From: Lachnospiraceae bacterium | Lineage (GTDB): Bacteria > Bacillota > Clostridia > Lachnospirales > Lachnospiraceae | Length of the DNA: 56,843 nucleotides | Reading direction: 5' to 3' | NCBI GenBank assembly: GCA_017524595.1 | Contig: JAFXVI010000038.1 | Location: forward strand, 1-56,843 | Part shown: in pieces, positions 6,979-56,843 of the stretch | Layout of the letters: every line of letters begins with the position of its first letter | Numbering within the stretch: position 1 is the first letter of the stretch | Notes under the pieces: generated by a model | Database searches by the model: none | What the model saw: the letters and a program-made list of their open reading frames with translations, nothing else | What the model was told of the DNA's origin: nothing | Position numbers and translations under genes: made by a program

Positions 6979-7007
6979 ATTGTATTTTATCAGACCTGTT
7001 TTTTCAA
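6979..7007 (-). promoter_or_regulatory. Promoter of the citrate synthase-icd-rex operon
   Basis: TTGAAA (7002-7007) and TACAAT (6979-6984) on the minus strand with a 17-base spacer, five of six consensus bases in each box. The -35 box overlaps the TGA stop of the upstream LRR gene. Predicted start of transcription is near 6972, leaving a 25-base leader. No Rex-like palindrome is visible here. Confidence 0.75.
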
Positions 7008-9973: not shown

Positions 9974-9988
9974 CGTAACTCCTTAATA

Positions 9989-14506: not shown

Positions 14507-14524
14507 AATTCTCCCCGTACCTGA

Positions 14525-15325
14525 TCAATCGATCCTCTTTGCTACTACCACAAACCTCTCCGCACCCTCAGAATAATCGCAGGTCGAGAGTGTTATAAGG
14601 CTGTCTCCGTAATATGATTCAACGCCTGTTTCATACAGTGATTTATTGGCCATTTCCTGCATATTGGACATATATTCCTGAGCCGAATTCGCATCTATAA
14701 ATTGATAATACTTAAAGGCAACCTCAGATTCCTCATGTACTACATCATTAAATACATACATAACCCGGTACTTGCCCTTGTCGTAGAGTGTATCGAATCT
14801 TATAACCGGATGCTTATCACAGTATTTCTTATCCTTATAACTGTCCAGAGTACCAAACATCTTTCCGGACTTCATATTATGCCCGTATATGATGATATTC
14901 TGACTGCGCGGCCAGATGCTGCACTCAGCGTCAATAAATATCGACCCGTTATTATCCTTCTCCTGATCAAAGTTATGATCCAGATAATAATCCTCATTCT
15001 TAGACTGCATCACGGGATAGTCAATACCTGTGCCCTCTATCTCTATCCATCCGATTATGCTTTTATTCTTGGAATATAAAGCATTGAATTCTTCAAGCAC
15101 AGGGGGCGCATCCTCTTGTTCAACAAGATGCACGGTCGGTTTATTCTGGACGTTTATTGGTTTTTTATCCTTGAGGTCTGAAAGCTGTTCGAAATTTGAT
15201 GAAGAGTCGCCTGACATGTATATGTAAAAAGCAAAATAACCTAAACAGAGCACAGCCGCAAGGCCACAGATAAACCTTACGATACTTCTGGTCCTTGCAT
15301 TACTGTTTCTTTTGTTCCTGCCCAT
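14525..15325 (-). CDS. srtB: Class B sortase
   Basis: 266 residues. One N-terminal membrane segment (about 15-37), then the sortase barrel with catalytic His149 (IIYGHNM), Cys249 (TLSTCDY) and Arg257 (ERFVVVAKR). The TLSTC context and GWIEIEGTGIDYPVMQ segment are typical of class B. It cleaves a sorting motif between Thr and Gly and joins the protein to peptidoglycan. The likely substrate is the TPKTG protein encoded next, matching the (S/P)PxTG-type motifs reported for clostridial SrtB. First gene of a three-gene operon with the promoter at 15374-15402; AAGGGG lies just before the ATG. Confidence 0.94.
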   Translation of the reverse strand: MGRNKRNSNARTRSIVRFICGLAAVLCLGYFAFYIYMSGDSSSNFEQLSDLKDKKPINVQNKPTVHLVEQEDAPPVLEEFNALYSKNKSIIGWIEIEGTGIDYPVMQSKNEDYYLDHNFDQEKDNNGSIFIDAECSIWPRSQNIIIYGHNMKSGKMFGTLDSYKDKKYCDKHPVIRFDTLYDKGKYRVMYVFNDVVHEESEVAFKYYQFIDANSAQEYMSNMQEMANKSLYETGVESYYGDSLITLSTCDYSEGAERFVVVAKRID

Positions 15326-34031: not shown

Positions 34032-34074
34032 ACTATTGAGGGAGAATTTTAACATTTAAAAAGGGGGGATGAAT

Positions 34075-35145
34075 ATGGCACGTCAGAAGAATAACGCCAA
34101 AACTGTGATCATAATCGTAATGCTGCTCGCCATTGTGGCCGGCATAATTTCCGTCACGCTATACATTAAATACAACAGCCGTGTTCCGGATAATCCGCCG
34201 GGTACACTGGGCAACACGGGCGGCAACATAAATAACGAAGGCCTGTTCTGTCAGGATGGAAATAAGGTTTATTTCAGTAATACCCTTGATAACAATTACA
34301 TATATTCAATGGATCTTGACGGTAGCAACCAAAAGCTTGAACTTGCCATTTCCGCCAAGTACATTAATTCTGCCGGCAAATATCTCTATTATAACCAGAT
34401 AGATACATCCACTGATCTTGTATACGGCTTTACAGGCAATGTCCACGGGATATACAGGTATAAGAAAGATTCCTATGACCAGACAAAAGGATTTGACAGG
34501 ACTGCGGCAGGACAGACAATTCTTATAGATAACTATGTATATTACCAGCATTATGATAATAATAACGGCATGACCCTCTACCGCTGTTCAACAAATGACA
34601 GTGATAAAGGCGAGGTCCTTAAGGAAATAGTCAACCCATGCTGTGTCATTAACGGAGACATTTATTATCCGGATCAGAACAACTATTTCAAACTTAATGT
34701 TTTTAATACCGGTACACTCAAGTCCTCTCCTTATTTAAATGAAAGAATGTATAACCCGGTATATTCAAACGGATATATCTATTTCATAGACATATCAAAC
34801 GGATACTGCTTAAGCAGATACAGCTTTGACAATCACAGCGTCGAGAATCTGACTGCCGACCGCGTTGACGTCTTCAATATTCTTGGCGATGTGATCTTCT
34901 ACCAACGTAATGCCGAGGACACACCTGCAGTAATGCGCATGAGCTCGGACGGTTCCAATTCTGTTATGATCGCGATGGGGAATTACAGCAATATAAACAT
35001 GACTACCGCTTACACCTACTTCCATGCATACGGAGATCCGATGGATATGTATCGTGTGAGTACGACAGGCAATCCAAGGCCCGAAGTTTTCAGGCCTGTG
35101 ATAGCCGAAAAGAAGGCAAATAAATTCAAGTTCAAGAGTGACTAA
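34075..35145 (+). CDS. DUF5050 membrane-anchored beta-propeller-like protein
   Basis: 356 residues. A basic N-terminus and one helix (about 9-31) anchor the protein; the outer part is a series of repeats of the form YFSNxxDNxYIYSMDLDGSN, typical of DUF5050 six-bladed propeller-like domains. Function unknown; ligand binding at the surface is a guess. The second ATG (34075) is chosen because a GGGGGG run lies six bases upstream of it but abuts the first ATG. Transcribed alone, ending at the hairpin at 35200-35238. Confidence 0.8.
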   Translation: MARQKNNAKTVIIIVMLLAIVAGIISVTLYIKYNSRVPDNPPGTLGNTGGNINNEGLFCQDGNKVYFSNTLDNNYIYSMDLDGSNQKLELAISAKYINSAGKYLYYNQIDTSTDLVYGFTGNVHGIYRYKKDSYDQTKGFDRTAAGQTILIDNYVYYQHYDNNNGMTLYRCSTNDSDKGEVLKEIVNPCCVINGDIYYPDQNNYFKLNVFNTGTLKSSPYLNERMYNPVYSNGYIYFIDISNGYCLSRYSFDNHSVENLTADRVDVFNILGDVIFYQRNAEDTPAVMRMSSDGSNSVMIAMGNYSNINMTTAYTYFHAYGDPMDMYRVSTTGNPRPEVFRPVIAEKKANKFKFKSD

Positions 35146-42496: not shown

Positions 42497-42952
42497 TTAT
42501 CTGATCTCCAGATGATCAACCTCCGGCACTTTGTTTGAGCTGAGCGTTACAATAGTTACAAGATTCGTATCAAGCTCCACCTGAATATCGTGCTGATATG
42601 TTTTTGACTTGAGCCTGCCATTTATCTCATCAAGATCATCAACCTGTAAAAATCCCTTTACCTCATCTACAAAATCGGTATACGCAAGACCATTAAGCGA
42701 TGACAGATTCATCCTGGAAAAGCCTGAAAGCGGCCTGTCCGTAACATACTCATCTGCCACGGCAGCTGCCACTGCGTCATGCACAGCCTGTGCTATCTGC
42801 TCATCCGTAGCAACTCGCGACTTCTCAACAAACTTCAAATACCAAGGTATAAGAAAACCTACCAGAACCGCCATGATGGCTATTACAATGATAAGTTCCA
42901 GTAAAGTAAAACCCTTATTTAAATTGTCCGGCTTCAATCTATCTTTATTCAT
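42497..42952 (-). CDS. Type IV pilin-like protein (class III signal, short form)
   Basis: 151 residues. A 14-residue leader ends in KG, followed by FTLLELIIVIAIMAVLVGFL: the prepilin peptidase site with Phe+1 and Glu+5 and the hydrophobic assembly helix. The ~115-residue outer domain is closely related to that of the protein at 51122-51583 (shared GFxxxN, FLQVDDL and KSKxY blocks). No Cys in the outer domain. Own promoter with the -35 in the tail of the preceding terminator. The ATG lacks a strong ribosome site, unusual for this genome. Could be a minor pilin or pseudopilin. Confidence 0.88.
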   Translation of the reverse strand: MNKDRLKPDNLNKGFTLLELIIVIAIMAVLVGFLIPWYLKFVEKSRVATDEQIAQAVHDAVAAAVADEYVTDRPLSGFSRMNLSSLNGLAYTDFVDEVKGFLQVDDLDEINGRLKSKTYQHDIQVELDTNLVTIVTLSSNKVPEVDHLEIR

Positions 42953-42984
42953 AGTATGTATCTTGAATCACACAACTGTATACT

Positions 42985-43013
42985 AATGTATCATAATCCG
43001 GTTAAAAGTTCAA
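42985..43013 (-). promoter_or_regulatory. Promoter of pilin gene 42497-42952
   Basis: TTGAAC (43008-43013), 17-base spacer, TACATT (42985-42990) with a TG one base ahead, on the minus strand. The -35 box lies in the U-tract of the terminator at 43011-43044. It closely resembles the promoter at 44776-44804. Confidence 0.65.
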
Positions 43014-43044
43014 AAACAAGAAACCGCCAATGTGGCGGTTTCTT
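43011..43044 (-). terminator. Terminator after the TPR-like gene
   Basis: An 11-bp perfect stem (43018-43028 with 43034-43044) and 5-base loop, followed on the minus strand by GTTTTTG. It lies 25 bases past the stop at 43069. Confidence 0.85.
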
Positions 43045-43068
43045 CAACATCCAATATATACCATACTT

Positions 43069-44010
43069 CTATTTCATCAGATTCAGATAATCCCTTCCAG
43101 TCTCTACACATTTTCTCTCATATTCATCATACAGCGGCTCAACCTGTTCAGCAAGCCTATCATACTTGTCTTCAATACTCTTCTTATATGTCGGGTTCAA
43201 AAGGCATCTGTAGTACATCTTAATAAGATTGCCGCGTAACCCCGAGCCATCATCAAGTATTGAATGCCCCAGTCTTGAATAATAGTCATTAACATCACTT
43301 ACATAATGCACATCACATTCCAGATAATAGTTGAGCGAACGCTCTCTGTCATCCAAATGATAATATATCTCTCCAATATACATACACAGTTCGGTATAAA
43401 GCATTGACCTCTTATCATGCTTATCCAGTTCTCCAAGAAAGAGCTCCAATGCCTCCTCATACCTCATGAGCCCCATTAAGCGCCTGGTATACTGCATGTC
43501 AAAATCATCCGTAACCCTTCCCGTCTCACGCTGTCCATTCCACACCAGAAGACTTGTGATCACGCTTTCCACGTCCTGCTCTACACCATTTAACATAAGC
43601 CCTATTACCGGATTAAACTCTTCGCTGTCATGGATCATCACATTGTAATTTTTCAATTCTTCATTCAGAGTATTCCTAAGCTTTGCAAGCATATACGGAT
43701 TGGCATACGGCTCAACCTTAAGTGCTGCTCTGATCCTCATGATAATATACCGCATCAGCTGCCCAGCCGGCGTGTCCTCTGAAATCACAGCCAGCATATC
43801 CTCCCTGATATCACTGAATACATCCTCATGATCAAGTCCGAAAACACTACCGTCATTCAAAGAAACACATACAGAACTTGGCATCCCCGATGCAGCAAAC
43901 ACATTGCTATCAAGAAAATAAATCTCTTTGCTGACATACATGTTTTGGATCTTTGTCAACATACCTGCATATTGAAGTTGTAATGTATGGGATAATTTAA
44001 AGAAAAGCAT
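43069..44010 (-). CDS. Uncharacterised TPR-like protein in pilin cluster
   Basis: 313 residues from an ATG (44008-44010) preceded by GGAG; in-frame TTG (44040) and ATG (44022) starts upstream have no site. Mostly helical, no signal peptide or membrane helix, so cytoplasmic. The C-terminal half holds paired helices with a TPR-like rhythm (YEEALELFLGELDKHD, LYTELCMYIGEIYYHLDDRERSLNYYLECD split here). I do not recognise the family. It follows a pilin gene by 41 bases and shares its transcript, so a role in regulating or assembling the pilin-like proteins is inferred from position only. Confidence 0.7.
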   Translation of the reverse strand: MLFFKLSHTLQLQYAGMLTKIQNMYVSKEIYFLDSNVFAASGMPSSVCVSLNDGSVFGLDHEDVFSDIREDMLAVISEDTPAGQLMRYIIMRIRAALKVEPYANPYMLAKLRNTLNEELKNYNVMIHDSEEFNPVIGLMLNGVEQDVESVITSLLVWNGQRETGRVTDDFDMQYTRRLMGLMRYEEALELFLGELDKHDKRSMLYTELCMYIGEIYYHLDDRERSLNYYLECDVHYVSDVNDYYSRLGHSILDDGSGLRGNLIKMYYRCLLNPTYKKSIEDKYDRLAEQVEPLYDEYERKCVETGRDYLNLMK

Positions 44011-44051
44011 ATTCAACTCCATAAAATCACATAAGAACAAATAATGATCAA

Positions 44052-44741
44052 CTACTCCGCATAAGCGTCACATGGTACTGGCCAGAGACGGAAACATGGC
44101 CAGCCTCCTCTTGCCGAACCGTCGGCAGTCCATATTTCAAGTTGACCCGTCTTGGCATTCTTACATATCCTCCACCTGTCAACTTCACCATATACTTTCT
44201 TTTCTTTTGCAGCCAATGGATGCACTCCGACCTTTGTTATCTTATATTGAGGAACCATGATCTTGTTTTTCATCTTTCCGACGCCTTCTCTCTGCCATTT
44301 CTGTGCAGTCGCTGTATCAACATGCATGATCCCCAATTCTTCATTAAGAGCATCATAAATATTCTTACCATCACTATTCTTGGGACTATTCTGAAACGTG
44401 GTACCGGAAAACATTCCGAAATCCTCACTGGATATAAGGGCATATACCTGATATCTGCCCTCTCCTGCCACCTGCTCATCAACCCATACAGATACGCCCT
44501 TGCTCTTAGCCTGTGAATCAAACACATCATAAAACTCAGGATTATCCATAAGAACACGCTCAAATGCATGTGCAATGGTTTCTGCATTATCTATGTCTGT
44601 AGCTCTTCTTGATTTATCCAGGAATCTAATATATTGAGGGACAATTACAGCGACAAGAACTGCCATTATGGCCATGGCTATAATCAACTCTAACAAAGAT
44701 ATCCCCTTATTATCCACTTTATTAAAATGAATTGACTTCAT
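44052..44741 (-). CDS. Type IV pilin-like protein (class III signal, long form)
   Basis: 229 residues. A 13-residue leader ends in KG, then ISLLELIIAMAIMAVLVAVIV with Glu+5: Ile replaces the usual Phe at +1. The outer domain ends in a conserved block also found in the protein at 44830-45477 (VDRWRICKNxxxGxxEIW ... PCFRLWP), with two Cys that probably form a disulfide. The two are clear paralogues in tandem. Own promoter (44776-44804) and shared transcript with the TPR-like gene. No homology beyond the N-terminal helix to named pilins is evident to me. Confidence 0.87.
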   Translation of the reverse strand: MKSIHFNKVDNKGISLLELIIAMAIMAVLVAVIVPQYIRFLDKSRRATDIDNAETIAHAFERVLMDNPEFYDVFDSQAKSKGVSVWVDEQVAGEGRYQVYALISSEDFGMFSGTTFQNSPKNSDGKNIYDALNEELGIMHVDTATAQKWQREGVGKMKNKIMVPQYKITKVGVHPLAAKEKKVYGEVDRWRICKNAKTGQLEIWTADGSARGGWPCFRLWPVPCDAYAE

Positions 44742-44775
44742 AACAAAATACCTTAATACCCAAATTCCCTATATT

Positions 44776-44804
44776 ACTGTATCACAATCAGATAAAAAGG
44801 TCAA
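44776..44804 (-). promoter_or_regulatory. Promoter of pilin gene 44052-44741
   Basis: TTGACC (44799-44804), 17-base spacer, TACAGT (44776-44781) with TG one base ahead. The -35 box overlaps the U-tract of the terminator at 44803-44827. Confidence 0.65.
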
Positions 44805-44827
44805 AAAAAGCAGGCAAAAGTGCCTGC
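44803..44827 (-). terminator. Terminator after pilin gene 44830-45477
   Basis: Perfect 7-bp GC-rich stem (44810-44816 with 44821-44827), 4-base loop and seven consecutive T on the minus strand; two bases after the stop codon. Confidence 0.9.
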
Positions 44828-44829
44828 TC

Positions 44830-45477
44830 CTATTTTGTATATATATCATCCGGACTCGGCCATACACGATAACATGGTTTACCGCCATAACTCTTGCCAT
44901 CACGCAGATCGTATGCCGACCACACTTCAATTCTCCCGTTATCCTTGCGTTTACATACTCTCCATCTGTCAATCTTCGTATTACCATCAGGTCCGACAAC
45001 TTTATAGTTTGGAACCAAAATCTCATTCACATAAGTTGCTGTATCCTTTTTCCCTTTTGTCTCATACATAACGCCCATCTCTTCATTAATGATATCATAG
45101 AAACATTTACCACTACTTAGCGGGCGTTTAAAAGCGTCTGTTCCTCCTGAAAAAAAACCCTTTGTTTCAGTGGATAATATCAAGTATACTTTATACCTCT
45201 CATTTACACCTTCTACCGTTGCATTTACAGTTGTTTCAAGGCTTTTCCAATTTGTATATATCTGATATGCATCCTCATCATAGACGAAAGCCCTCTCAAA
45301 TGCCTCTCCTATCTTCTGGGCATTCTCAACATCTGTGGCCTGACGTGATCTATGTACGTATTTCATATATTGCGGAGTAATGAAACCAACAAGTATCGCT
45401 AATATTGCAATAGCAATGATCAGTTCCAACAATGTAATACCCTTATTTGATTTCATCATTTCACAAAATCTTTTCAC
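44830..45477 (-). CDS. Type IV pilin-like protein (class III signal, long form)
   Basis: 215 residues. A 13-residue leader ending KG, then ITLLELIIAIAILAILVGFI with Glu+5 and Ile+1. Paralogue of the protein at 44052-44741, sharing the C-terminal RWRVCK ... PCYRVWP block with two Cys. GTG start with AGGG seven bases upstream. It is a single-gene unit with its own promoter (45551-45578) and a strong terminator, so it can be expressed at a level different from its neighbours, as a major pilin would be; that is inference. Confidence 0.88.
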   Translation of the reverse strand: MKRFCEMMKSNKGITLLELIIAIAILAILVGFITPQYMKYVHRSRQATDVENAQKIGEAFERAFVYDEDAYQIYTNWKSLETTVNATVEGVNERYKVYLILSTETKGFFSGGTDAFKRPLSSGKCFYDIINEEMGVMYETKGKKDTATYVNEILVPNYKVVGPDGNTKIDRWRVCKRKDNGRIEVWSAYDLRDGKSYGGKPCYRVWPSPDDIYTK

Positions 45478-45550
45478 CGATCATCCCTCATAATCCGTTT
45501 CAACATTGTTTTTAATCATTTCATTATTTATATCGACTACACAAATAAAC

Positions 45551-45578
45551 ATATTAACAGAATTATAATCTAAATCAA
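45551..45578 (-). promoter_or_regulatory. Promoter of pilin gene 44830-45477
   Basis: TTGATT (45573-45578), 16-base spacer and TAATAT (45551-45556) with TG one base ahead, on the minus strand. The -35 overlaps the stop codon of the Wzy-like gene. Leader about 67 bases. Confidence 0.5.
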
Positions 45579-47884
45579 GTCGAATTTTCATTGCTATCAG
45601 TTACTCTTTGCCATGTCACACCCTTTAATGTTCCTTCCTGCCCCTTTTCCATAACAAGCCATGACTGAATCAGCCAACAATCCACTCCAATACCAAAGTC
45701 TACACCATCACATAGATCACCGTTTTCATCAAACATGCTTCTATATACATCGACATCGCATATATCCATTTCACCTCCGTATGCATTTATCGTTATTTTG
45801 CATACTTTATAGTCCATATCATATGGCACGGGATCTATATGAAGCCTATAAATCCATTTATATTTTCCCGAATAAAGGTTTATCATCCTGTCTTGATCGA
45901 TTTTAAAGGGATTATCGCCGGTTCCTGCATGGAATGTCCTTTTCTTTCCTCCAAGAACAATATCACCGATATCATTCGTATCCAGGCCCTGTGCCTTAGC
46001 CTCATCTTTCATATCAAGCGAGTATACTGCCGTACAATATTCACTCACATTGTATCCAGCCATTTTAAGTGCATTAATCACACCCTCATCATTGGTATAC
46101 AAGGCATGCGAATCCGAAATCTCTGAATACAAAAAACCACTGTTTAAGAAAACAGGGGAATCAAGCTCTTTATCAACCAGGACCGTTGTGTTTTTATATC
46201 TTGCGAGTTCTTCGCCATCGTATAATGACCTACTTATGCCGTCGTACCTTCTATGATACAATTCTCCAAGCCTGTCAACATATATCTTACCGACTTTCGA
46301 ATTAAGCATAACTTCAAAGGGAGCAGAATCACCATCGGGCAAAGAGGCATATTTTTCTATAACCGAATCAATCCTGTATGTCAACCATACGAAAGTCAAT
46401 ACAAGGAACATGACAGATATCGTTATCGCAGCTTTAAGTGAAATACCAGTTCTGACATGACACATTTTACCGGCCCAAAAACGAGAAACACCTGATATCG
46501 CAATTGTCAAAAGCAACTCAATGGCAAGTATGGCAATAAACACATATGCCTGATCGTTTATGCTGAGAGTAAGCAATCTGAGTCGTGGTACCAGCAATAA
46601 AATAATAATGAAAGCAGCTATTAGGCTGGCTGCAAAAAAGCCTGCTTGGATTGTCTCATAATGCTCATTATCATGTATTCTGTCTGCAGACTCTTTTCCC
46701 TTATTGTCAGATTCTTCTTTTCCCTCCGTAAGCGCTGCAAAAGGCAGAATGATAAATATATTATAGAATACCTGCATAAAATGATGCTCCGACATTGCAT
46801 GAACAGCGATCAGTGTAAGTGCCATAACCATACGGCGTTCTCCACTTTTTATCGCCCTTCTTGTCATCAATATCCATAGAAACGACATGATAAGCCATAT
46901 AACTATTCCATAATAAATAAACAGCCTTATATAACTGCTGTCGATAAAGAAATAATCTGCATGATTATATGTGGAGCCCCCGGCTCCTATCTGCTTAAAC
47001 GGGGCTCCAAACGCAGATATTCCATTTTCCATAAATGCTCTTACAGGCTGGGAAAATCTGTGTGTAAAATTATCGTCGAGAAAAATCGCAAAAGCATATC
47101 CCTTATAATATGACCATGTAATAAATATCATGATAAATCCAGCCAACGGAAATACCGCCTGCATGACAATGTCTGCCACACACTTTATGCATCTTATGTA
47201 TTTATGTTTATCTGCATAACGTTTTTCAACAATTCCATATATTATCAAAACTGCAAAAACAGCACTGCATATAATACCCGTTGTGCTATAAGCAAGATAA
47301 TAAGCCACCACAAATGTAAGAGCCGGAAAAATCAGCGACAGTTCATCCGAAAGCCCCTTCCATAAAACCCATAACGATATTATAAGGAAGAAGATTATAG
47401 AGGCAAAATCAGTAGGATATCTTATCCCCATAGAACTCCTGATATGCCCTTCCTTTATATACACAAGGTCTGGTATGAATCCGCATAACGCAGCAATGAT
47501 CGTACATAGAACTACACTTCCGACTGAAATAAGATATACTCTTAATATCTTCCTGTAATTGATACCTATGCATCCCAGAGTCATAACCCCAAGCGTTGCA
47601 AAATGCTCCACATCCCAGCTCAATGTATATATAACATTAATGAACACAGCACACCAGACCAGCTTATCTTTATAGTGTGGAATTATCCTTATAATGACTA
47701 CTACCGATATAAGAACTGATAGCATATTATCAAGAGCATCCGGAATCTGAAATGTGAACATAGTTATCCCAAGAGTCATAACCCCAAGGTATATTGCACA
47801 CAAGCACAGAAATACAGGCTCTGTGAGCTTATCACACTTTTTCCTTATTACTTCATCATTTAAATACCTAGATATCATACCCAT
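45575..47884 (-). CDS. Polytopic membrane protein, Wzy/O-antigen-polymerase-like, with outer C-terminal domain
   Basis: 769 residues. Ten or more helices in about 30-430 with a large loop after the middle helices (around AFMENGISAFGAPFK), then three more helices (about 450-560), then a ~210-residue soluble C-terminal part. The layout and the polar loop residues recall oligosaccharide repeat-unit polymerases and O-antigen ligases, but I see no decisive motif. Its start overlaps the GT-C gene; I use the ATG at 47882-47884 behind GGA. Cotranscribed with the GT-C and FAD genes, so it probably acts on the same glycan. Confidence 0.65.
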   Translation of the reverse strand: MGMISRYLNDEVIRKKCDKLTEPVFLCLCAIYLGVMTLGITMFTFQIPDALDNMLSVLISVVVIIRIIPHYKDKLVWCAVFINVIYTLSWDVEHFATLGVMTLGCIGINYRKILRVYLISVGSVVLCTIIAALCGFIPDLVYIKEGHIRSSMGIRYPTDFASIIFFLIISLWVLWKGLSDELSLIFPALTFVVAYYLAYSTTGIICSAVFAVLIIYGIVEKRYADKHKYIRCIKCVADIVMQAVFPLAGFIMIFITWSYYKGYAFAIFLDDNFTHRFSQPVRAFMENGISAFGAPFKQIGAGGSTYNHADYFFIDSSYIRLFIYYGIVIWLIMSFLWILMTRRAIKSGERRMVMALTLIAVHAMSEHHFMQVFYNIFIILPFAALTEGKEESDNKGKESADRIHDNEHYETIQAGFFAASLIAAFIIILLLVPRLRLLTLSINDQAYVFIAILAIELLLTIAISGVSRFWAGKMCHVRTGISLKAAITISVMFLVLTFVWLTYRIDSVIEKYASLPDGDSAPFEVMLNSKVGKIYVDRLGELYHRRYDGISRSLYDGEELARYKNTTVLVDKELDSPVFLNSGFLYSEISDSHALYTNDEGVINALKMAGYNVSEYCTAVYSLDMKDEAKAQGLDTNDIGDIVLGGKKRTFHAGTGDNPFKIDQDRMINLYSGKYKWIYRLHIDPVPYDMDYKVCKITINAYGGEMDICDVDVYRSMFDENGDLCDGVDFGIGVDCWLIQSWLVMEKGQEGTLKGVTWQRVTDSNENST

Positions 47885-49520
47885 CAATTCCAAATTTCTT
47901 AAGACAATCCTTACGTACATATATTTGCCGGCTGAATGTTGCCGTCTTATTCTTCCCCATATAATACCCCTTCATTTCAGCCACATCAACATAATCACCT
48001 AAAGATATCTCATCATCGTATACAAGCTTAAGTGCCGGTGTTCCTACCAACACTTCCGGTATCCCGCAAGCATGCCATAATCTGTATGCTTCAAGATTCT
48101 CTTCCTTGGATGAACACAGGTGTGATGCATATCCTTTCCTGTGGTCTCTCGCATTATGGTTAAAAAAAATATTATCATCAAAATACGGAAGTATCGCAAC
48201 TGCGTCCAATGTATTCTCACTTTCCAGATAATCGTAGTCCATCATAACGTTATCCGGAGCATCACTTCGCATATCCCAACTTATCATAATAGCTGCGTTT
48301 TCCATATTATGTTCCTTGATAAAATCTGCAATAGCCTTTGACTCACTATATGGAAGCCTTACATCATCTATGCATATCTTCATGCAATATCCGGCTGAAA
48401 AAGCCACGATTACGATCGGAAGCACCTTAAATGCGCACACGATCAAAGCAATATCCTTCTCACCCAGACGGGAAAACATTACATTTTTAATCTTTAAACA
48501 TCTGTCGCTTATAAATGAAATATCATATACTGCCCATATATAACTGCACAGCCAGATCATGCCTATTCCGGTATGGTTACCGGAGCCATAAAAGCACATA
48601 AATAAAATGTAAAACAGATATGGAACAATATAATACTTTATATCTCTTCTCTTTGATATAAGAATGATGATCCCCAAAATGAATAGTGTTGTTATAAGTC
48701 CGGGGATCGTATCAACAATCCCCATCGTTTCCCAAGTTGGAAGTCCGGTCACCGAAATAAAAGTATCTCCCGGAAGCACAAAAATAAAATACAAAAGCTT
48801 TCGTATTAAATAATTGTTTGAAACATTTCCCAACGCATATACATCACTAAACGGAATTATCAAGTACACTACGGGTAATACTGCAACAAGCAGAACAAGG
48901 AGCGCATACAGCCTTATGTCTTTATGAATATCCCTGAATCTATTACTTCTATATTCAGCTATAATATCCAATAACCAGCATATACTTATTCCTCCTGCGA
49001 TCAATATGCCATAGATACTGGTAAGACACAGAAGGTACAGGCCTCCTGCAAAACGACATGGTTTTGTTTTTCTGTTTTTGAAAGACATTGCTATAAGGAC
49101 GCATGATAATTCAAGTACACAATATGTCCTGCTGATAACTCCATATTGATAAAAGAAAAAATACGTAAAAGGTAATATATATCTTATCACCTTGGGAAAT
49201 GGAGATTTGAACACTATAAGTAATACCGTTAACACCGAGAAGATCAGAGATATACCCTTAAGACCAATCAGATAAGGCACGCCGAGCTTGGCCGGAACAG
49301 ATAGTATAAGCGACCACAGCGGCGGATGACCCTCTGTATGAGGCAATACTGTCATGATCTCCCTGTATGTTGCAGTCTTTCCAATTTCCCATGCCTGTGC
49401 CTCATCGAACCATGGTTCATGGAAAAAAGATACTATAATAAATAAAACCATATACAGAATAACAACGGCGATTTCAATACCGCCAGCGTTAAATATGTTT
49501 GATAGCTTACCTCTCCTCAT
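47868..49520 (-). CDS. GT-C fold membrane glycosyltransferase
   Basis: 550 residues, about eleven helices. The first outer loop has [13 protein letters not shown] and a TEGHPPLW motif, which match the Asp/Glu catalytic loop of GT-C enzymes that use polyprenyl-phosphate sugars (ArnT/PMT-like). The C-terminal ~150 residues are outside. It would transfer a sugar to a surface glycan or protein. The ATG at 49518-49520 follows AAGGA and overlaps the end of the FAD gene by 14 bases; earlier in-frame starts lie deeper in that gene. Confidence 0.82.
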
Positions 49521-51117
49521 GGTATTCCTTCTCGGTATTAACATTCCATAATGCAGTCTGATCTGTACTTCCGCCAAGTATAAGCTTTAGTGCCTCAAAC
49601 GATGTCATCATAGAGTGATCCATATTATTGTACCTGTGCTGCCCGTTTCTTCCAACGCAATATAGATTGCTTATAGTCTTAAGAAACTCTGTCAGCTTAT
49701 TCATCTCACTATAGGTATCAAAGTATGCAGGATAGGCTTTCTTAACCCGTTCAAGATGAGTGTCTATCACATCCTCCGGCCTGTCGATGATACCTATCCT
49801 CACCATTTCAGATATACCCATTCTGGCAAAGTCATTATCAGACATATTCCAATATTCATCGCCTTCGTTTACAAAATATTCAAGCCCTAGCCATACGGTA
49901 TTATCCAGGTCTTCTACCATATAGGGTGACCAGTTATTATATATCTGCATCCTTCCCATGCGCACACGTCTGTCCTGAATGTATATCCAGCAATCCGGTA
50001 CTATATTGGATACCGTCTTCATATCGGTAATGTTTTTAAGCTTTAGTTTGGAAACAAGCACTCCAAGAGTCATATAATCCCGATACGGCAGGCCCGCAGC
50101 AATACGGGCAGGTTCAGCCGGCACATCATTCATACCCTCTATAAGTTCACGGACAGGCATGGAAGAAATAACATAATCTGCAGTGAGCCTGACTTCCTGT
50201 CCATCCTTTATATAAACCACATCTTCAATCCTTTTATCTCTTAGTCCAAACCTTACAGCTCTGGCCCCTTTTATAATCTTACCGCCATTCTTTTCAATCT
50301 CTGCGGCTACCAGCTCCCAAAGCTGTCCCGGACCAAACTTAGGATATTTGAACTCCTCTATAAGCGATGTCTCAACCTTTCGGTTCCTTACATCAAAAGT
50401 TCTGCCTAATACATCTCTTAATATCGCAAAAATGGATAAACCCTTTACCCTCTGTCCTCCCCAGGAGGCATCTATCTCCCTTGGATGCCGCCCCCAGATG
50501 TTCTCCGTATAATATTCGAAAAACATTGAATACAGCTTCCTTCCAAAACGATTAATATAAAAATTCTCAAGATTATCCTCCGGACGCTTATGAAGTATTG
50601 AGATAAGATATGAGAAGCCTACCTTTATAGTGTTACCAAAACCCATATTTTTAAAGGTGGCCATTGAAAGGCTTATCGGATAGTCATAGAATTTATCATC
50701 AAAAAGTATTCTTGAAACGCGCCTCCTAAACAGCATCACTCTGTCTGTCTGCTCAGGATCACTGTTCTTATTATAACCGTCAGGCTCAGTATTTTCTCTT
50801 GAACCCGAATTTACTGAAGCCAGATAGGATTCAACAGCATTTCTACCCATGGCCGCATCATCCTTTGCCTCGGATGTCTGCATAGGCATTATCTCGTCCC
50901 ACCACTCATTAACTTCGGGAATCTTGGAGAAAAACCGATGGCCGCCCATATCCATACGGTTTCCCTTATAATTTACCGTCTTGGATATTCCGCCAATATC
51001 TTCCGTTTCCTCAAGCACGATAATTTCAAAATTTTCATTTTTAACAGCAAGTTCATATGCCGCAGTCAACCCTGCCGGACCTGCGCCAATAACAATTACC
51101 CTTTTCACTACACACAC
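49507..51117 (-). CDS. FAD-dependent oxidoreductase, UDP-galactopyranose mutase/amine oxidase type
   Basis: 536 residues. N-terminal FAD-binding [18 protein letters not shown], the ribose-binding Glu in [14 protein letters not shown], a [11 protein letters not shown] motif and a C-terminal [17 protein letters not shown] flavin contact. The family lies between Glf-type mutases and protoporphyrinogen-oxidase-like proteins, and usually occurs in polysaccharide loci. The gene starts five bases after a pilin gene and overlaps a glycosyltransferase gene, so a sugar nucleotide substrate is likely. Start GTG at 51117 (or GTG three codons on); the ribosome site is weak. Confidence 0.82.
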
Positions 51118-51121
51118 TCGT

Positions 51122-51583
51122 TTACTTTATTATCAGATCATCTACTGATCCTGGAACATTAGAAGATACTGTTACGGTTACTTTCTGTGTGGCACCATCA
51201 ACCCTGACCTTAATATCTTCATTACTGTATGCCTTGGATTTGAAACGATTCTTTATGGTTCCCAAATCGTCAACCTGAAGGAACGATTTGATTGTGGCAA
51301 CAAATTCAGTATACGGTTTATCCGTGTAACCTGAAACACCTATCTGCTCAATATTGATATCCGAAAAACCATCAAGCGGTCTTTCCTCGATATTCTCATC
51401 AGCCATCGCAACCGTTACTGCATCATGTACTGACGTAGCAATCTCTATATCTGTTTCCATACGCGATTTTTCAACATACTTAATATATTGCGGTGCAAGT
51501 AACGCAACCAGTATAGCCATTATTGCAATAACTATTACTAATTCTACCAATGAAAAACCTTCATTCCTTATCTCTTCATCCAT
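51122..51583 (-). CDS. Type IV pilin-like protein (class III signal, short form)
   Basis: 153 residues from the ATG at 51581-51583. A 9-residue leader (ends EG), then [20 protein letters not shown] with Phe+1 and Glu+5. The frame opens further upstream to an ATG at 51661, but that ATG lies inside the terminator stem, so the shorter form is chosen; GGAG is 11 bases ahead, rather far. Paralogue of 42497-42952 (VEKSRxxTD, GFSxxN, FLQVDDL and KSKAY blocks). The next gene, for the FAD enzyme, starts only five bases after its stop, so pilin and sugar enzymes share a transcript. Confidence 0.85.
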
Positions 51584-51630
51584 GTGGCATGCAACTCCAT
51601 TAATATGAGAATAAAAACCTTCAATCTCTA

Positions 51631-51661
51631 AAATGGGTTGTCTGTACAACAGGCAACCCAT
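51631..51661 (-). terminator. Probable terminator after the pilin-like gene 51677-52144
   Basis: Stem of 7 + 4 pairs (51634-51640/51642-51645 with 51649-51652/51654-51660) broken by one A-C mismatch on the minus strand, 3-base loop, followed by TTTTAG. The U-tract is short, so partial read-through to the pilin gene is likely. On the plus strand the stem is continuous with a G-U pair. Confidence 0.55.
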
Positions 51662-51676
51662 ACATTTTATTTCAAG

Positions 51677-52144
51677 TTAAAACATAACATCCCCATGCTC
51701 ATTAGGAGCAGTTGATCTGACAGTAAGATGTATCTCCTTACTGTCCTCATACATATAGATAACATATCTGCTTCCCTTAAATGCCTCTGATTTAAAACCT
51801 TCGCCTTCCAGCTCTTCAAGACTTGACACATCCAGTCTCTTACACAGTTCTTCATTAAATTCCTGCAGAGTACTCATCTCACTAAAATCACTAAGTGAAA
51901 TATCCCATAGGGCAGTAGGCATATTTGAAAGGCTTTCATCTTCCACAATTGACTGCATGGCCGAATAAACACGCTCTATTGATTTAATATCCCTATCTAT
52001 ACGTTTTTTTTCCGCATATTCCTTAATCTTAGGCATAGAAATATATATTATCACTGCCGCAGTAACGGTTATCAGGGAAAGAACTATCGTCAGTTTAAAA
52101 AATAAACTGTATTCCTTAACCTCCTTCTGACTTATTATTCCCAT
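51677..52144 (-). CDS. Membrane-anchored pilin-like protein lacking the prepilin peptidase site
   Basis: 155 residues. One N-terminal helix (about 15-35) followed by KIKEYAEKKRIDRDIKSIERVYSAM (broken here for reading as KEYAEKKRIDRD) that parallels the [11 protein letters not shown] helix of the pilins, and a C-terminal block (SSLEELEGEGFKSEAFKGS) that parallels their [17 protein letters not shown]. But there is no Gly before the helix, no Phe/Ile+1 and no Glu+5. So it looks like a pilin relative that stays in the membrane unprocessed. ATG with AGAGG five bases upstream; nine bases after the giant gene's stop. Confidence 0.72.
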   Translation of the reverse strand: MGIISQKEVKEYSLFFKLTIVLSLITVTAAVIIYISMPKIKEYAEKKRIDRDIKSIERVYSAMQSIVEDESLSNMPTALWDISLSDFSEMSTLQEFNEELCKRLDVSSLEELEGEGFKSEAFKGSRYVIYMYEDSKEIHLTVRSTAPNEHGDVMF

Positions 52145-52153
52145 GATCACCTC

Positions 52154-55100
52154 TTAATCCAGGTCAAAAACTTCAGTCCTTACAATATTTGCAGCCGCCG
52201 TGGATGTCATTGTTGAATTCACACCTGTTTTCGAATTAGTAACACTGTCTGTTGCGACCACAAACAGATTTATAGTATTCTTAAGGTTAGATCCTGATCC
52301 CATGAATGCACCCATAGCATCCATCGCAAATGAAACCTTATGAACAGCTCCATTCTTAAGATTATTAAGATCCCCCTCCAAAATAGCGCCTGTTTCAGGA
52401 TCCATATATGTCACACTGGTTGTATCAACCGGAAGCTCCTTTACAGTATACTCATTAGTATTATACCTGATAGTTGTCGCACCGGTTGTTCCGGCGGGAA
52501 CTTCATAGTAGAACTTGGCACTCATCGTATGTGACACGAACTCTGCATTCTGAACAAGGCTCACCTGTTCAGGCATAAAATAGACATCCTTGGTAACACC
52601 GATAATCTCCCCTTGGTCGGCATGCTGGGAAATATCAAGCTGTTCATCATATGTAATATAAATATTGTCAGTATTCCTCTTGCCCGCATATCCTTCCTTA
52701 AACGTTATATCAGGAGCATGTAAGCCTGATCTGTAGGCAGCAACTATAGTATTTATGAACAGCTTCATCTCATTTTCGGAATCGCCCTTCATAACATCTG
52801 AATGCCCTACTCCACTATAGGTTACATTACCCTTATTATAGATATAATAATTATTTCGTACATCACCCGGAGACATTGCATACATATCCGCCGGCTTGCC
52901 GTTTTTAGCCTCATCATCAACAAGACCCGAATCATCAAGACAATACCAGACTACAATATCACTCTCACCGTCAAAATCATCATCCGCTGTCACATCAAGC
53001 TGGAACCACTGCTCATGTGTATTAGCCACCGGGAATTTATCCGGCAGTTTGTAAGGATACTCCGTGATCTGACCGCCATTAACCTTCTTAACACTCATAT
53101 CGTAGTACTGACCGACAGTATGTATATGATGCCTTTTATCATATGAATCACAATTAGGATCAACATCACTTCCATTCTCAGGATTTCTGTAATTATCTAT
53201 CCATCCATAATCATCATGAGTATGATCGATATCCTTAAGATTTGCCAATGGCTCCGTAACGTTTTTGTTCGGAGAGGCTTTCTCATATACGTCCTTATAT
53301 TGTGTTCCAAAATATCCACTAGTATTTATATTGCCATAAGTAAATCCATGTATCTGCGAACTGGTGATCTTATTGCTGTCCGTACGGGAAGTTCTGGGCT
53401 TATATATACTGTCATGTACATACGTTCCATCTTTCGCCTCATTCAGCACATTATATCTATCCATTCCAACAAGATTTCTAAGCTTTTCGTTGCACTCATA
53501 ACCGGTATTGGCACTGTATGTATCCAGAAGCCTTATACCATTATATACAGTACCGCTACTGTACCCATTCTCATCCACCAATGTACTCATCATCGATGTA
53601 CAGTCATGAGTAAACAAAATGCTGTGTCCTGAATTAACAAAATCTTTTATAGCTTCTACAGCTATCATATTCGGTGCTACATAGCAATCACCAAATCCCA
53701 TTATTACCATATCATAAGCTGCAATCGCATCGCTGTACTCCTGTTTGATGGAATTACGAAGCTCCTCATCGTATCCGTTTATCTCAACACTCATTTGGTT
53801 ACGTCTTGTCGTATTAAGAGTTCTAACCTGAGCATCGTTTATTCTATACCTTGCTCTGACCCTTGCGCTGTATGTTGGCGACATCGCACTGAATTCCGTT
53901 GATGTTACCGTTGTGATCTTGATATCATAAGGCACACAGTTATCTGTAAGAAGATCATAGAACTTATTCCCGCTCCCTGCTTCATACTCTTGCTGCATAT
54001 TCCAGGTAGAATGATATACGCCTTCAATCTTCTGTATCCAGCCATCTCTTCTTAATGATACTTCATAATTATCACCATGCTTTAAATTGCTTCGTTCCAA
54101 ATAAGACGCATTCCCTTCATTGGAACCTCTTCCATTATCAACTGATTCAACGTCAACAGAATTAATCTGGAGAACCTTGATCTCAGGCTTGGTATTTGAC
54201 ATCTGATAATATCCGGTAGCATTTGCACGCCTTAACGTATTACCTGATTGCTTTACTACAATACGCCACGGAATAACACCTGCCTGTGAGCCTGACAAAC
54301 GGTAAGTACCATAATAAGTCACTCCCGGTCGTACCGCATATGTTCCTCCTGTTTTAGATATTACTTCACCGGAATCTGAATTGACTAATCTCGTGAAATC
54401 CACGCTCTCCTGAGTAGCAGAATATTTTCCATCAGCATTTACGTCTATATATAGGTTAACATAATAATCATCAGTTGCACTTACAGCGCCCTTGTTATCT
54501 ATACTGAAATTGAACGGTACATAAAAATATCCATCTTCTGTATCTTTATATACATTCTGTGTTGTTGTCATTGAAGCTGCGGCATTTCCATACATAGTCA
54601 GCTTTGGTTTAGAAAGATTCAGATAGAAATCAAATAATCCCGGTGAAAGATTAGATAACTTAAATACATTATCTTCATTCATCACGCTCTCTATAAAACT
54701 GTACATATATGATGCCGTGTCAACCTTGCATTTATTTATACTATATGTTTGATCCGTGTTCCTGATGAAGAAAGAATCATCCATGACTATAGGAAAGCCT
54801 GCGTTAACGAAGTCTTTAAGCGCATTGACCTTCTCCTGCGTTATATCATTTCCGCCATACCTCGTCTTATATACATCCCTGTCATTACCAGTCTTTATTA
54901 CCATCGCGGACTTTACGCCCCCATTGCCCTTAGTACCGCTCACATACTCATTATCGAGCATTCCAGCAAGATGAATCTGCATGTATGCATAATCGCCGAC
55001 GTTGGAATAAACTAAGCCATCCATATTAAGATCATTGTAATCTGTCATCTTCACCTGGGCATTGTAATCCTCCTGCGTTGCCCTCCCTGCCGTCACATCT

Positions 55101-56843
55101 TCAGTCTCTATGCTTCTCGTATTCATCTTATCGGTATTCATACCAAAATAGATCATATCATAATCGACATTGATGTCCTCAATACGACCTATGAATTGAG
55201 CAGTAGTCATTTGGGTGACTATTATTTTGGCTCCATCCTGATCAATAAGCGGATTATCCCTGTCTCCGTGAACGAAAAGCTTGGAGCCTACAATATTACC
55301 GTTATCATCTACTTCTTCAGATTCCGTAGACAGATCATAGGATGCGCATGGCTCTATCTCCAAAATACGCATTTCTCCCTTATGCTCGCCTGCCGCACGT
55401 TTTTTTCTGAAACCGATGATATAACGTATTGCAGTAGCTTCTGAAATGGTCTTATCAAGCTCCTTGAGCTTCTCTGCCTTGCGATACAGGTTCTCAGTTT
55501 CAACATCTGTCAGTACATCAGCAAAGCCCGCCTTTATTTCCTCAGAATTAAACGCTCTCATGAGCTTATCATTTAATAAGCATGTATATATACCTGTAGA
55601 CTGATTATCTAATTTGCGGTTATATATGTATACATTCTCATTTACAAAATGATTATCATTGCCGCTGAGTGTAATTGCGTCGCTGGATACAGAAAGACCA
55701 TTTACATCATAAAATTCATCGCTTATAGAATATAATGTATTGAAGCACTTATACATATCATCATGTGACAGCCTCAGCTTCTTAATCAGATCGGATGCAA
55801 CCGGTTCTCTGACATAGGTAGTTGAGTTTTCAGACAGAGTCTCATAATCCGTTACTATTCTGTAATCTCCTATTATCGGAATACGGCTCTCTACTATCAG
55901 ACCAAGTATGTTCCTGAACGATCTGACACTTAAATCATTATCGCCATAAGAATAATTATCAAACGAATCTCCTATACAATATTGTGCATCACCAGACATC
56001 ACAGCAATAAACCTTGCTGAAGTAATATCCTCCGCTGTAACTTTGGAAGCGGGCCTGGTATAGACTTCAACAGGCAGCTTATCACACTGCTCACCGGCAT
56101 CTCTGTCAAGGATATTTCTCTTAAACCACTCATTATTGGTAATATTTATTTTGTAATATATTTCAGCACCACGGATATGATACGGCTTAATATCAGCATT
56201 ATTTTGCCAAAACCTCAATGCTGTCTTTTCACTCATAAAACTGTAATTACCATTACCAAAATCATAATCATATATGAAAAGATCTTCAGGGCACTCATCA
56301 CGTACAACAATCACGCCACGACCGGTAATATTAGGCACAAGCGCCCCCTTTTCAGAAGATATATCAATAATATACTGTGCTCCGGTATCCTGTTCGCATG
56401 GTCTGAAATTATTAACACTGTAAAAGTCCTGATTTTGCAGTGTATCTGTATACTCAAAACCAAGGATATAATACGATGCGGCACCTCTTTGTTCATTTAT
56501 AGACGCTTCTTCTTCATTTTCGCCTGTATTATCACCTTCTGCTAAATCCTGGGCTTCATTATCCTCCGAATCTTGCAATACTGTTTGATCACCATCAAAT
56601 ACAACTTCGTCTTCGCGCTCATCAAATGCACCGGTTCCATCTTCTATAACTATACCATTATCTTCTCCTGCATTAACAGCTTTGGCGTCTTCCTTAAGTA
56701 TCTCGGCATCTCCAGGACCAGCATCCTTAGGCGATATCACACCTTTCCCATCATCTAACGCAGACAGGGTTACTGTTGGTGATGCTGATGAAAATGTATC
56801 TTCATTCTCATGCTCCTCTGTGGTAACGCTGGTTGCAGAAAAG
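52154..56843 (-). CDS. Giant secreted DUF5057-type protein, N-terminus beyond window edge
   Basis: At least 1562 residues; the frame is open to the right edge, 34 codons beyond the first possible internal start (GTG at 56740), so the true start is outside. The first ~130 residues seen are acidic and low in complexity (a linker), then a non-repetitive region. Two similar Rossmann-like blocks occur: YDMIYFGMNTDKM ... LKDFVNAGFPIVMDDS (about 575-715) and YDMVIMGFGDCY ... IKDFVNSGHSILFTHD (about 1040-1085), the pattern of DUF5057. EF-hand-like DVNADGKYS and DLNMDGL loops suggest calcium. No C-terminal sorting motif or helix. It heads the pilin/glycan operon, so a surface or pilus-tip role is plausible. 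Confidence 0.72.
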   Translation of the reverse strand, partial: FSATSVTTEEHENEDTFSSASPTVTLSALDDGKGVISPKDAGPGDAEILKEDAKAVNAGEDNGIVIEDGTGAFDEREDEVVFDGDQTVLQDSEDNEAQDLAEGDNTGENEEEASINEQRGAASYYILGFEYTDTLQNQDFYSVNNFRPCEQDTGAQYIIDISSEKGALVPNITGRGVIVVRDECPEDLFIYDYDFGNGNYSFMSEKTALRFWQNNADIKPYHIRGAEIYYKINITNNEWFKRNILDRDAGEQCDKLPVEVYTRPASKVTAEDITSARFIAVMSGDAQYCIGDSFDNYSYGDNDLSVRSFRNILGLIVESRIPIIGDYRIVTDYETLSENSTTYVREPVASDLIKKLRLSHDDMYKCFNTLYSISDEFYDVNGLSVSSDAITLSGNDNHFVNENVYIYNRKLDNQSTGIYTCLLNDKLMRAFNSEEIKAGFADVLTDVETENLYRKAEKLKELDKTISEATAIRYIIGFRKKRAAGEHKGEMRILEIEPCASYDLSTESEEVDDNGNIVGSKLFVHGDRDNPLIDQDGAKIIVTQMTTAQFIGRIEDINVDYDMIYFGMNTDKMNTRSIETEDVTAGRATQEDYNAQVKMTDYNDLNMDGLVYSNVGDYAYMQIHLAGMLDNEYVSGTKGNGGVKSAMVIKTGNDRDVYKTRYGGNDITQEKVNALKDFVNAGFPIVMDDSFFIRNTDQTYSINKCKVDTASYMYSFIESVMNEDNVFKLSNLSPGLFDFYLNLSKPKLTMYGNAAASMTTTQNVYKDTEDGYFYVPFNFSIDNKGAVSATDDYYVNLYIDVNADGKYSATQESVDFTRLVNSDSGEVISKTGGTYAVRPGVTYYGTYRLSGSQAGVIPWRIVVKQSGNTLRRANATGYYQMSNTKPEIKVLQINSVDVESVDNGRGSNEGNASYLERSNLKHGDNYEVSLRRDGWIQKIEGVYHSTWNMQQEYEAGSGNKFYDLLTDNCVPYDIKITTVTSTEFSAMSPTYSARVRARYRINDAQVRTLNTTRRNQMSVEINGYDEELRNSIKQEYSDAIAAYDMVIMGFGDCYVAPNMIAVEAIKDFVNSGHSILFTHDCTSMMSTLVDENGYSSGTVYNGIRLLDTYSANTGYECNEKLRNLVGMDRYNVLNEAKDGTYVHDSIYKPRTSRTDSNKITSSQIHGFTYGNINTSGYFGTQYKDVYEKASPNKNVTEPLANLKDIDHTHDDYGWIDNYRNPENGSDVDPNCDSYDKRHHIHTVGQYYDMSVKKVNGGQITEYPYKLPDKFPVANTHEQWFQLDVTADDDFDGESDIVVWYCLDDSGLVDDEAKNGKPADMYAMSPGDVRNNYYIYNKGNVTYSGVGHSDVMKGDSENEMKLFINTIVAAYRSGLHAPDITFKEGYAGKRNTDNIYITYDEQLDISQHADQGEIIGVTKDVYFMPEQVSLVQNAEFVSHTMSAKFYYEVPAGTTGATTIRYNTNEYTVKELPVDTTSVTYMDPETGAILEGDLNNLKNGAVHKVSFAMDAMGAFMGSGSNLKNTINLFVVATDSVTNSKTGVNSTMTSTAAANIVRTEVFDLD

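Follow-up and report, generated by a model that had tools for sequence, protein, structure and literature searches.

The stretch of DNA analysed here (the window, 56,843 bases) constitutes the entire contig C84 of a Lachnospiraceae metagenome-assembled genome (MAG; 1.73 Mb in 110 contigs, completeness 59.9%). Between positions 42497 and 56843, its minus strand carries a run of genes for a DUF5057 protein, a pilin-like protein, a pilin, an FAD enzyme, two multi-transmembrane (multi-TM) proteins, two pilins, a tetratricopeptide-repeat (TPR)-like protein and a final pilin. We describe this run, the type IV pilus (T4P) locus to which it appears to belong, and the putative roles of its giant DUF5057 protein and its glycan genes. 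The individual features, in the 5' to 3' direction of the genes, are:

56824..56843, no strand: 20 bases identical to the 3' end of C71, the contig of this MAG on which the T4P machinery is encoded (sequence comparison)
52154..56843, minus strand: 3' part of the gene for the giant secreted DUF5057 protein (PF16480, E 8e-44)
51677..52150, minus strand: divergent pilin-like protein with no recognisable prepilin cleavage site (no N_methyl match)
51633..51661, no strand: 13-pair hairpin between the first two pilin genes (hairpin scan)
51122..51661, minus strand: pilin with GFSLVEL (N_methyl, E 1.4e-06)
49507..51117, minus strand: FAD-dependent oxidoreductase of the PRK07208 family (NCBIfam NF005546, E 7e-230)
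47868..49577, minus strand: glycosyltransferase with multiple membrane segments, probably of GT-C fold and belonging to the T4P-associated family A2 (from relatives, tree and linkage)
45575..47920, minus strand: Wzy/O-antigen-ligase-like membrane protein with an extra C-terminal domain (examined relatives in polysaccharide clusters)
44830..45477, minus strand: pilin with GITLLEL (N_methyl, E 3.4e-07)
44802..44829, minus strand: intrinsic terminator-like hairpin and T run after pilin 44830 (listed on the plus strand by the scanner; minus-strand T run read from the sequence)
44052..44741, minus strand: pilin with GISLLEL (N_methyl, E 2.7e-06)
43069..44040, minus strand: TPR-like protein (TPR_2, E 0.021, weak and below cut-off)
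43018..43044, minus strand: intrinsic terminator-like hairpin (12 pairs) and T run after the TPR gene (hairpin scan)
42497..42952, minus strand: pilin with GFTLLEL (N_methyl, E 2.5e-08)

Every gene named in the original prediction was found on this strand, with some qualification of what the genes encode. The giant protein does match PF16480, and its gene is cut by the contig end. Four of the five pilin-like proteins (42497, 44052, 44830 and 51122) contain the Pfam N_methyl signature (E 2.5e-08 to 2.7e-06); the fifth (51677-52150) lacks it and was identified as a divergent pilin by BLAST against pilin 51122 (22% over 147 amino acids (aa), E 4e-07). A 54% identical copy of this protein is encoded in genome G012, likewise directly 3' of DUF5057. 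Pilins 51122 and 42497 are 53% identical, and pilins 44830 and 44052 39-40%. The true start of pilin 51122, judged by eye, is probably the ATG at 51583. While the FAD assignment was borne out by its family match, the TPR call is weak, neither Pfam nor NCBIfam gave a match for the supposed GT-C protein, and the only Pfam match of the Wzy-like protein is at chance level (Ribosomal_S12, E 0.025), with no O-antigen-ligase match in Pfam (E≤0.1) and no NCBIfam match (E≤0.01).

The original prediction held that the pilus machinery was missing. PilB, PilC and PilD are truly absent from the window, but this absence is an artefact of the contig end: immediately upstream, on the far side of the contig break, are the genes for PilB, PilT, PilC, PilD and PilM and one for a PilO-like protein. 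The final 20 bases of C71 equal the first 20 of the window's reverse complement, the last open reading frame (ORF) of C71 runs off the contig, and the frame continues through the overlap to give a DUF5057 protein of 1,957 aa. In G012, a single contig spans the join and encodes PilO, the minor pilins, DUF5057 (1,993 aa) and a homologue of the window's first pilin. A single contig of G009 runs from PilB through DUF5057 (1,982 aa) to a pilin in the same order as C71/C84. Gene order is identical in G038 (same family) and similar but rearranged in G061 (same taxonomic order, other family), where PilD comes first and PilM and PilN are separate. Because of the 20-base overlap, the open frame, the bridging contig of G012 and the order in relatives, the window cluster is read from sequence as the 3' half of a single continuous T4P locus split by assembly.

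The C71 operon, running toward the contig end, consists of PilB-PilT-PilC-PilA-PilD-PilM(N)-PilO-like followed by four minor pilins (I/V-like, K-like, H-like and J-like). The extension ATPase PilB matches T2SSE (E 3e-135), contains an MshEN domain and scores 614 bits against TIGR02538, under the cut-off of 675.65, and the retraction ATPase PilT scores 461 bits against TIGR01420 (cut-off 319). The platform protein PilC (T2SSF, E 4e-61), PilD (Peptidase_A24, E 3e-16) and PilM (PilM_2, E 6e-13) were likewise identified. We infer that PilN is the C-terminal part of the PilM protein; the PilO-like protein, unmatched in Pfam and NCBIfam, is labelled from its position. N_methyl matches all of the C71 minor pilins except the K-like one. 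GspK/PilX-type minor pilins have no Glu at mature position 5, and no Glu was seen there in any of 39 site-placed rows of K-like minor pilins (3 of 42 were unplaced, and two of the 39 look misplaced). Read through the join, the predicted order of the locus is PilB-PilT-PilC-PilA-PilD-PilMN-PilO-minor pilins-DUF5057-pilins-FAD-GT-C-Wzy-pilins, and its core appears to be an ordinary monoderm type IVa pilus (T4aP), in agreement with the surface fibre of the original prediction.

Other T4P-related clusters occur in the genus. Contig C43 of the same MAG (L006 1087-5322) has a second, small type IV filament-like cluster that encodes four small proteins besides a PilC-like protein (26%) and a PilT-like ATPase (52%). 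A third T4P type was seen in G009 (L180, contig C58) and G036 (L179, contig C183), with PilB ~40% identical and, in G009, several GFTLVEL pilin genes.

Monoderm T4aP loci of Ruminococcus albus, Clostridium and Streptococcus sanguinis share PilB, PilT, PilC, PilD, PilM and GFxxxE pilins in one locus, according to published accounts (PMC6916266, PMC10628169). The present locus differs in having four H/I/J/K-type minor pilins followed by a giant non-pilin protein, and glycan genes inside it.

PF16480 was found in 7 of the 80 relatives searched and in 80 of 397 family genomes (the window's genome included in both), and in none of 14 control genomes. We surveyed 40 further DUF5057 loci, one per genome and mostly the better-scoring, from the 80 genomes. 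A K-like minor pilin is encoded no more than five genes upstream of DUF5057 in 37 of these loci, and a pilin immediately upstream in 36. The exceptions are L067, with no upstream sequence, L077, with no pilus genes in the stretch, and L082, where PilB-PilT-PilC is followed directly by a short DUF5057 copy; L059 is an exception for the immediate neighbour only. Thus, of the predicted co-conservation with DUF5057, the part concerning the minor-pilin set held. In L077 (7112-20000), the lone DUF5057 gene is followed by topA-like and flagellar rod/basal-body-like genes, as read from N-termini, and a similar run of gene lengths seems present in a number of the 40 loci.

A second T4P subtype of the genus encodes a probably secreted protein of ~830-940 aa at the position of DUF5057 in the six operon ends seen, and the profile of these six proteins aligned with the DUF5057 profile in hhalign (98.9%, E 1.4e-17, 123 columns). 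Scanning genome contigs with a single DUF5057 protein as query returned one locus only. A hydrophobic N-terminal segment is present in 44 of 47 DUF5057 copies. Among 20 aligned copies, 19 contain an Asp-rich DxNxDG loop, the remaining one having DxDxDG, and a second loop, DxDxDGxxD, is complete in 11, broken in 4 and absent in 5; we take both loops to recall calcium sites. In a Pfam scan of the window part of the protein, no PilY1-family match was obtained, the only matches at E≤0.1 being DUF5057 and DUF1638 (E 0.045). Solved structures gave no useful sequence match for DUF5057, the GT-C protein or the Wzy-like protein.

In diderms, pilY1 is encoded after the minor-pilin set, and proteins of the PilC/PilY1 family are characterised by a beta-propeller with a calcium site, located at the tip of the pilus. 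The position of DUF5057 would correspond to the one that PilY1 holds there, and its position, size and secretion suggest that DUF5057 probably sits at the fibre tip. PilY1-type tip proteins have been described for diderm pili, in which a PilHIJK tip of T4aP is capped by PilC/PilY1, while S. sanguinis uses PilABC instead (PMC10191384). PilC/PilY1 is likewise a large secreted non-pilin protein (PMC10191384, PMC4471445), and the calcium-site-like loops of DUF5057 are a further likeness; DUF5057 differs in lacking a PilY1-family sequence match and in that its second loop is broken or absent in part of the copies.

GT-C glycosyltransferases are multi-TM proteins with an acidic motif in the first outer loop. 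For the window's protein, which no family model matches, simple hydropathy counting gives 6 hydrophobic segments, and H53, E54, D58 and E59 are invariant. Searching 299 family genomes with this protein matched 15 (own included), and a profile search of 397 matched 16, of which 8 (G000, G111, G127, G342, G248, G187, G314 and G436) have a full-length copy scoring >690 bits. In six of the seven other genomes, this copy lies within 25 kb of a T4P PilC: at 1.7 kb in G436 and 2.6 kb in G127, in both between PilB and PilC; at 5.9 kb in G342, 14.9 kb in G314 and 24.0 kb in G187; and at 10.7 kb in G111, at the operon end after a J-like pilin. No PilC match at E≤1e-15 was found in G248. In G187, a same-strand series of PilB, PilC and pilin genes leads into a glycan cluster that includes adjacent FAD and GT-C genes. 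For five genera outside that of the window, the closeness of GT-C to PilC gave a Fisher's combined p of 3e-07 under random placement, leaving out G011 (met via its pilus genes), G436 (of the genus of G127), the window's genome (the query) and G248 (no PilC match); a version with G011 included gave 4e-08. The eight weaker relatives fall on the opposite side of a 100/100 branch of the tree, and in no case is there a PilC match on the contig of such a relative.

DUF5057 occurs in four of the seven other full-length GT-C genomes (G127, G342, G314 and G436), compared with 79 of 396 other family genomes (one-sided Fisher p 0.03; both searches appear to cover the same genomes), and shares a contig with GT-C in G342, G314 and G436. 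The predicted association of glycan genes with the pilus therefore survives in part: the family is T4P-linked in other genera, even if the FAD, GT-C and Wzy genes do not accompany DUF5057 generally. In G111 (L207 5791-9301), a multi-TM protein of 633 aa is encoded immediately ahead of PilB and a GT2 two genes upstream of that, while GT-C is at the other end of the operon. A 779-aa protein beside GT-C in G127 was unsupported as a YfhO relative (hhalign 1.2%), and the 488-aa protein beside GT-C in G436 was unsupported as a second GT-C (0.15%).

We compared the T4P regions of 18 same-genus genomes, own included, many of the regions being partial. In six, a GT-C, YfhO or GtrII membrane glycosyltransferase lies beside T4P or accessory pilin genes: GT-C in G000 and G011 (in the latter directly 3' of a gene for a 901-aa protein), YfhO in G009 and G003 (in G003 as a fragment on a contig other than that of PilB), and GtrII just upstream of PilB in G006 and G016. 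None of these was seen in the other 12 within the parts covered. A GT2 gene lies between the pilin and TPR genes in G012. The insertions are not solely glycan genes, because an MCP chemoreceptor gene (MCPsignal) in G026 (L172 16178-17656) and a MatE transporter gene in G019 (L175 5264-6643) lie between PilC and a pilin gene.

Wzy-like matches were obtained in 26 of 299 family genomes, own included, with a further relative in G011. The relatives lie on contigs other than that of PilC in G011, G153 and G215, and neither G211 nor G171 (L237) has a PilC match. A role as pilus-specific transferase was rejected, the four relatives with examined neighbourhoods being in what read as polysaccharide clusters away from PilC, and the most fitting reading is that a protein of Wzy/ligase type was recruited to the pilus locus.

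With regard to transcription, the stop of pilin 51122 lies 4 bases ahead of the FAD gene, close to the short gap originally proposed, and the FAD, GT-C and Wzy ORFs overlap in series as claimed. From DUF5057 to pilin 44830, gaps are short or genes overlap, with the exceptions of a 97-base gap before pilin 44830 and the hairpin before pilin 51122. A promoter-like TTGACC-17-TACAGT lies downstream of the 44802..44829 hairpin. Judging from the hairpins, the run may comprise three transcription units, the first from DUF5057 through pilin 44830, the second of pilin 44052 with the TPR gene, and the third from pilin 42497 onwards. A common transcript of pilin and glycan genes is thus probable for part of the run and not required for every gene. 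Promoter and terminator scanner totals were not above those of shuffles, and the three-unit reading therefore rests on hairpin position and quality. The motif GATTRTGATACA upstream of pilins 42497 and 44052 was found 2 times against 1.18 expected, which is not above chance.

Matches to the TPR-like protein occur in 37 of 37 genus genomes, most being longer paralogues of 20-25% identity, and the protein was rejected as a pilus part on account of this occurrence; in G307, a 26% identical TPR protein follows DUF5057. After pilin 42497 come genes that we take, naming them from sequence, to be rsuA- and ligA-like. Elsewhere, the window encodes two large BspA-type leucine-rich-repeat surface proteins (7004-15325, minus strand; PF13306, E 4.5e-94 and 1.3e-54) with a sortase gene directly upstream (PF04203, E 1.3e-15), and a DUF5050 protein (34069-35145, plus strand; PF16472, E 6e-70).

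Taken together, we consider it probable, at roughly 0.6, that the locus specifies a T4aP of a monoderm, tipped by the DUF5057 protein and accompanied by a pilus-associated glycosylation module that is rare and varies between lineages. PilB, with its MshEN domain, would extend the fibre and PilT retract it, the four minor pilins would prime it, and the giant secreted DUF5057 protein would cap it, as PilY1 caps PilHIJK in diderms, and mediate adhesion. The FAD enzyme may prepare a sugar donor, and GT-C would move the sugar from a polyprenyl donor onto an extracytoplasmic part of the pilus, most likely the pilins. The Wzy-like protein, a possible polymerase or ligase, would extend or transfer the chain. 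The sugar acceptor, itself inferred, is the weakest step of this model. Glycoprotein T4 pilins have a precedent among Gram-positive monoderms in the 25-kDa GP25 of R. albus (PMC3796261). Genes for the membrane transferases TfpO, TfpM and PglS are found near pilin genes, as here (PMC12645811); the window's Wzy-like protein differs from TfpO/PilO, TfpM, PglS and PglL in matching no such Pfam or NCBIfam model, and GT-C is of a different family. A literature search found no mention of 'DUF5057', and titles and abstract openings on T4P with glycosylation, Clostridia, Lachnospiraceae, R. albus and PilY1 contained no description of this arrangement. Neither 'glycosyl' nor 'PilY1' occurs in the main text of Imam et al. 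2011 (PMC3244431).

Several observations weigh against this reading. With respect to the tip protein, the single G061 DUF5057 protein did not match the profile of the ~900-aa proteins (0.5%), and an AlphaFold2 (AF2) model of the DUF5057 core with one relative reached a predicted local distance difference test score (pLDDT) of 32.6, supporting no fold. The structure model of GT-C alone (pLDDT 40.7) gave no structural support for a GT-C fold, both models being too poor for fold searches. Branches of the GT-C tree are long and its inner order lacks resolution, with a warning from the tool of possible false joins. In G342 and G314, what read as housekeeping genes lie between GT-C and the pilus genes, and the linkage there may therefore be loose. 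No window pilin (0 of 5) has a C-terminal Ser, and PilA ends in Thr; a TfpO-type target is thus absent from the window. FAD, GT-C, Wzy, YfhO and GtrII profiles matched none of the 40 DUF5057 stretches, which end within some kb beyond DUF5057 and in most cases do not reach upstream of PilB, and weak YfhO or GtrII relatives were possibly missed because these profiles were built from two sequences each. A GT2 match was obtained in one stretch. One of the 40 is from G127, whose GT-C, between PilB and PilC, lies on another contig. Full-length GT-C occurs in 8 of 397 family genomes compared with 80 for DUF5057. On these counts, glycosylation by GT-C is no general feature of the pilus.

An alternative, which we regard as rather unlikely, is that FAD, GT-C and Wzy build or decorate a cell-surface glycan (teichoic-acid-like or a capsule), sharing the pilus locus and transcript by insertion, and that the pilus is unglycosylated. 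The four Wzy-like neighbourhoods examined (G011, G153, G211 and G215), read by eye from N-termini as polysaccharide clusters, fit this alternative and also count against pilus glycosylation. The same holds for the PRK07208 FAD gene, which adjoins a divergent GT-C gene away from T4P in G360 (L213) and lies one gene away from one in G210 (L214), suggesting a general FAD-GT-C partnership. The uptake of unrelated MCP and MatE genes by the operon is also in line with insertion. It is countered by the close GT-C relatives being tied to T4P in several genera and at differing positions, with GT-C placed within the operon or at its end in G127, G436 and G111, while the divergent GT-C group is not so tied. 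A pseudopilus resembling a type II secretion system and exporting the giant protein or a glycan would accord with the weak, below-cut-off matches of the C71 minor pilins to GspH and PilV models and with a giant secreted protein adjoining pilin genes. It is very improbable given the PilT-family ATPase, PilA and the T4aP set, and the DUF5057 proteins' own hydrophobic N-terminal segments; no support was found for the glycan export originally suggested. That the contig join is coincidental and the window pilins form a separate locus without machinery is hardly credible, since, despite an overlap of merely 20 bases in a 60% complete MAG, the frame stays open, the joined length agrees with those in G009 and G012, and the G012 contig bridges the junction.

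Returning to the T4aP with a DUF5057 tip and a glycosylation module, the parts worth follow-up are the placement of DUF5057 and the T4P-linked GT-C family. Tentatively, and with less confidence than for the locus itself, we propose that DUF5057 and its ~900-aa cousins could be the monoderm counterpart of PilY1, conserved at the pilus tip and displayed there by an H/I/J/K-type minor-pilin complex across Lachnospiraceae, and that the unmodelled GT-C family could be a dedicated, frequently swapped pilus glycosyltransferase. If true, the conserved giant protein encoded after the minor pilins would give monoderm pili a PilY1 equivalent and a candidate adhesin, and a GT-C family accompanying pilus genes would give a genetic handle on monoderm pilin glycosylation.

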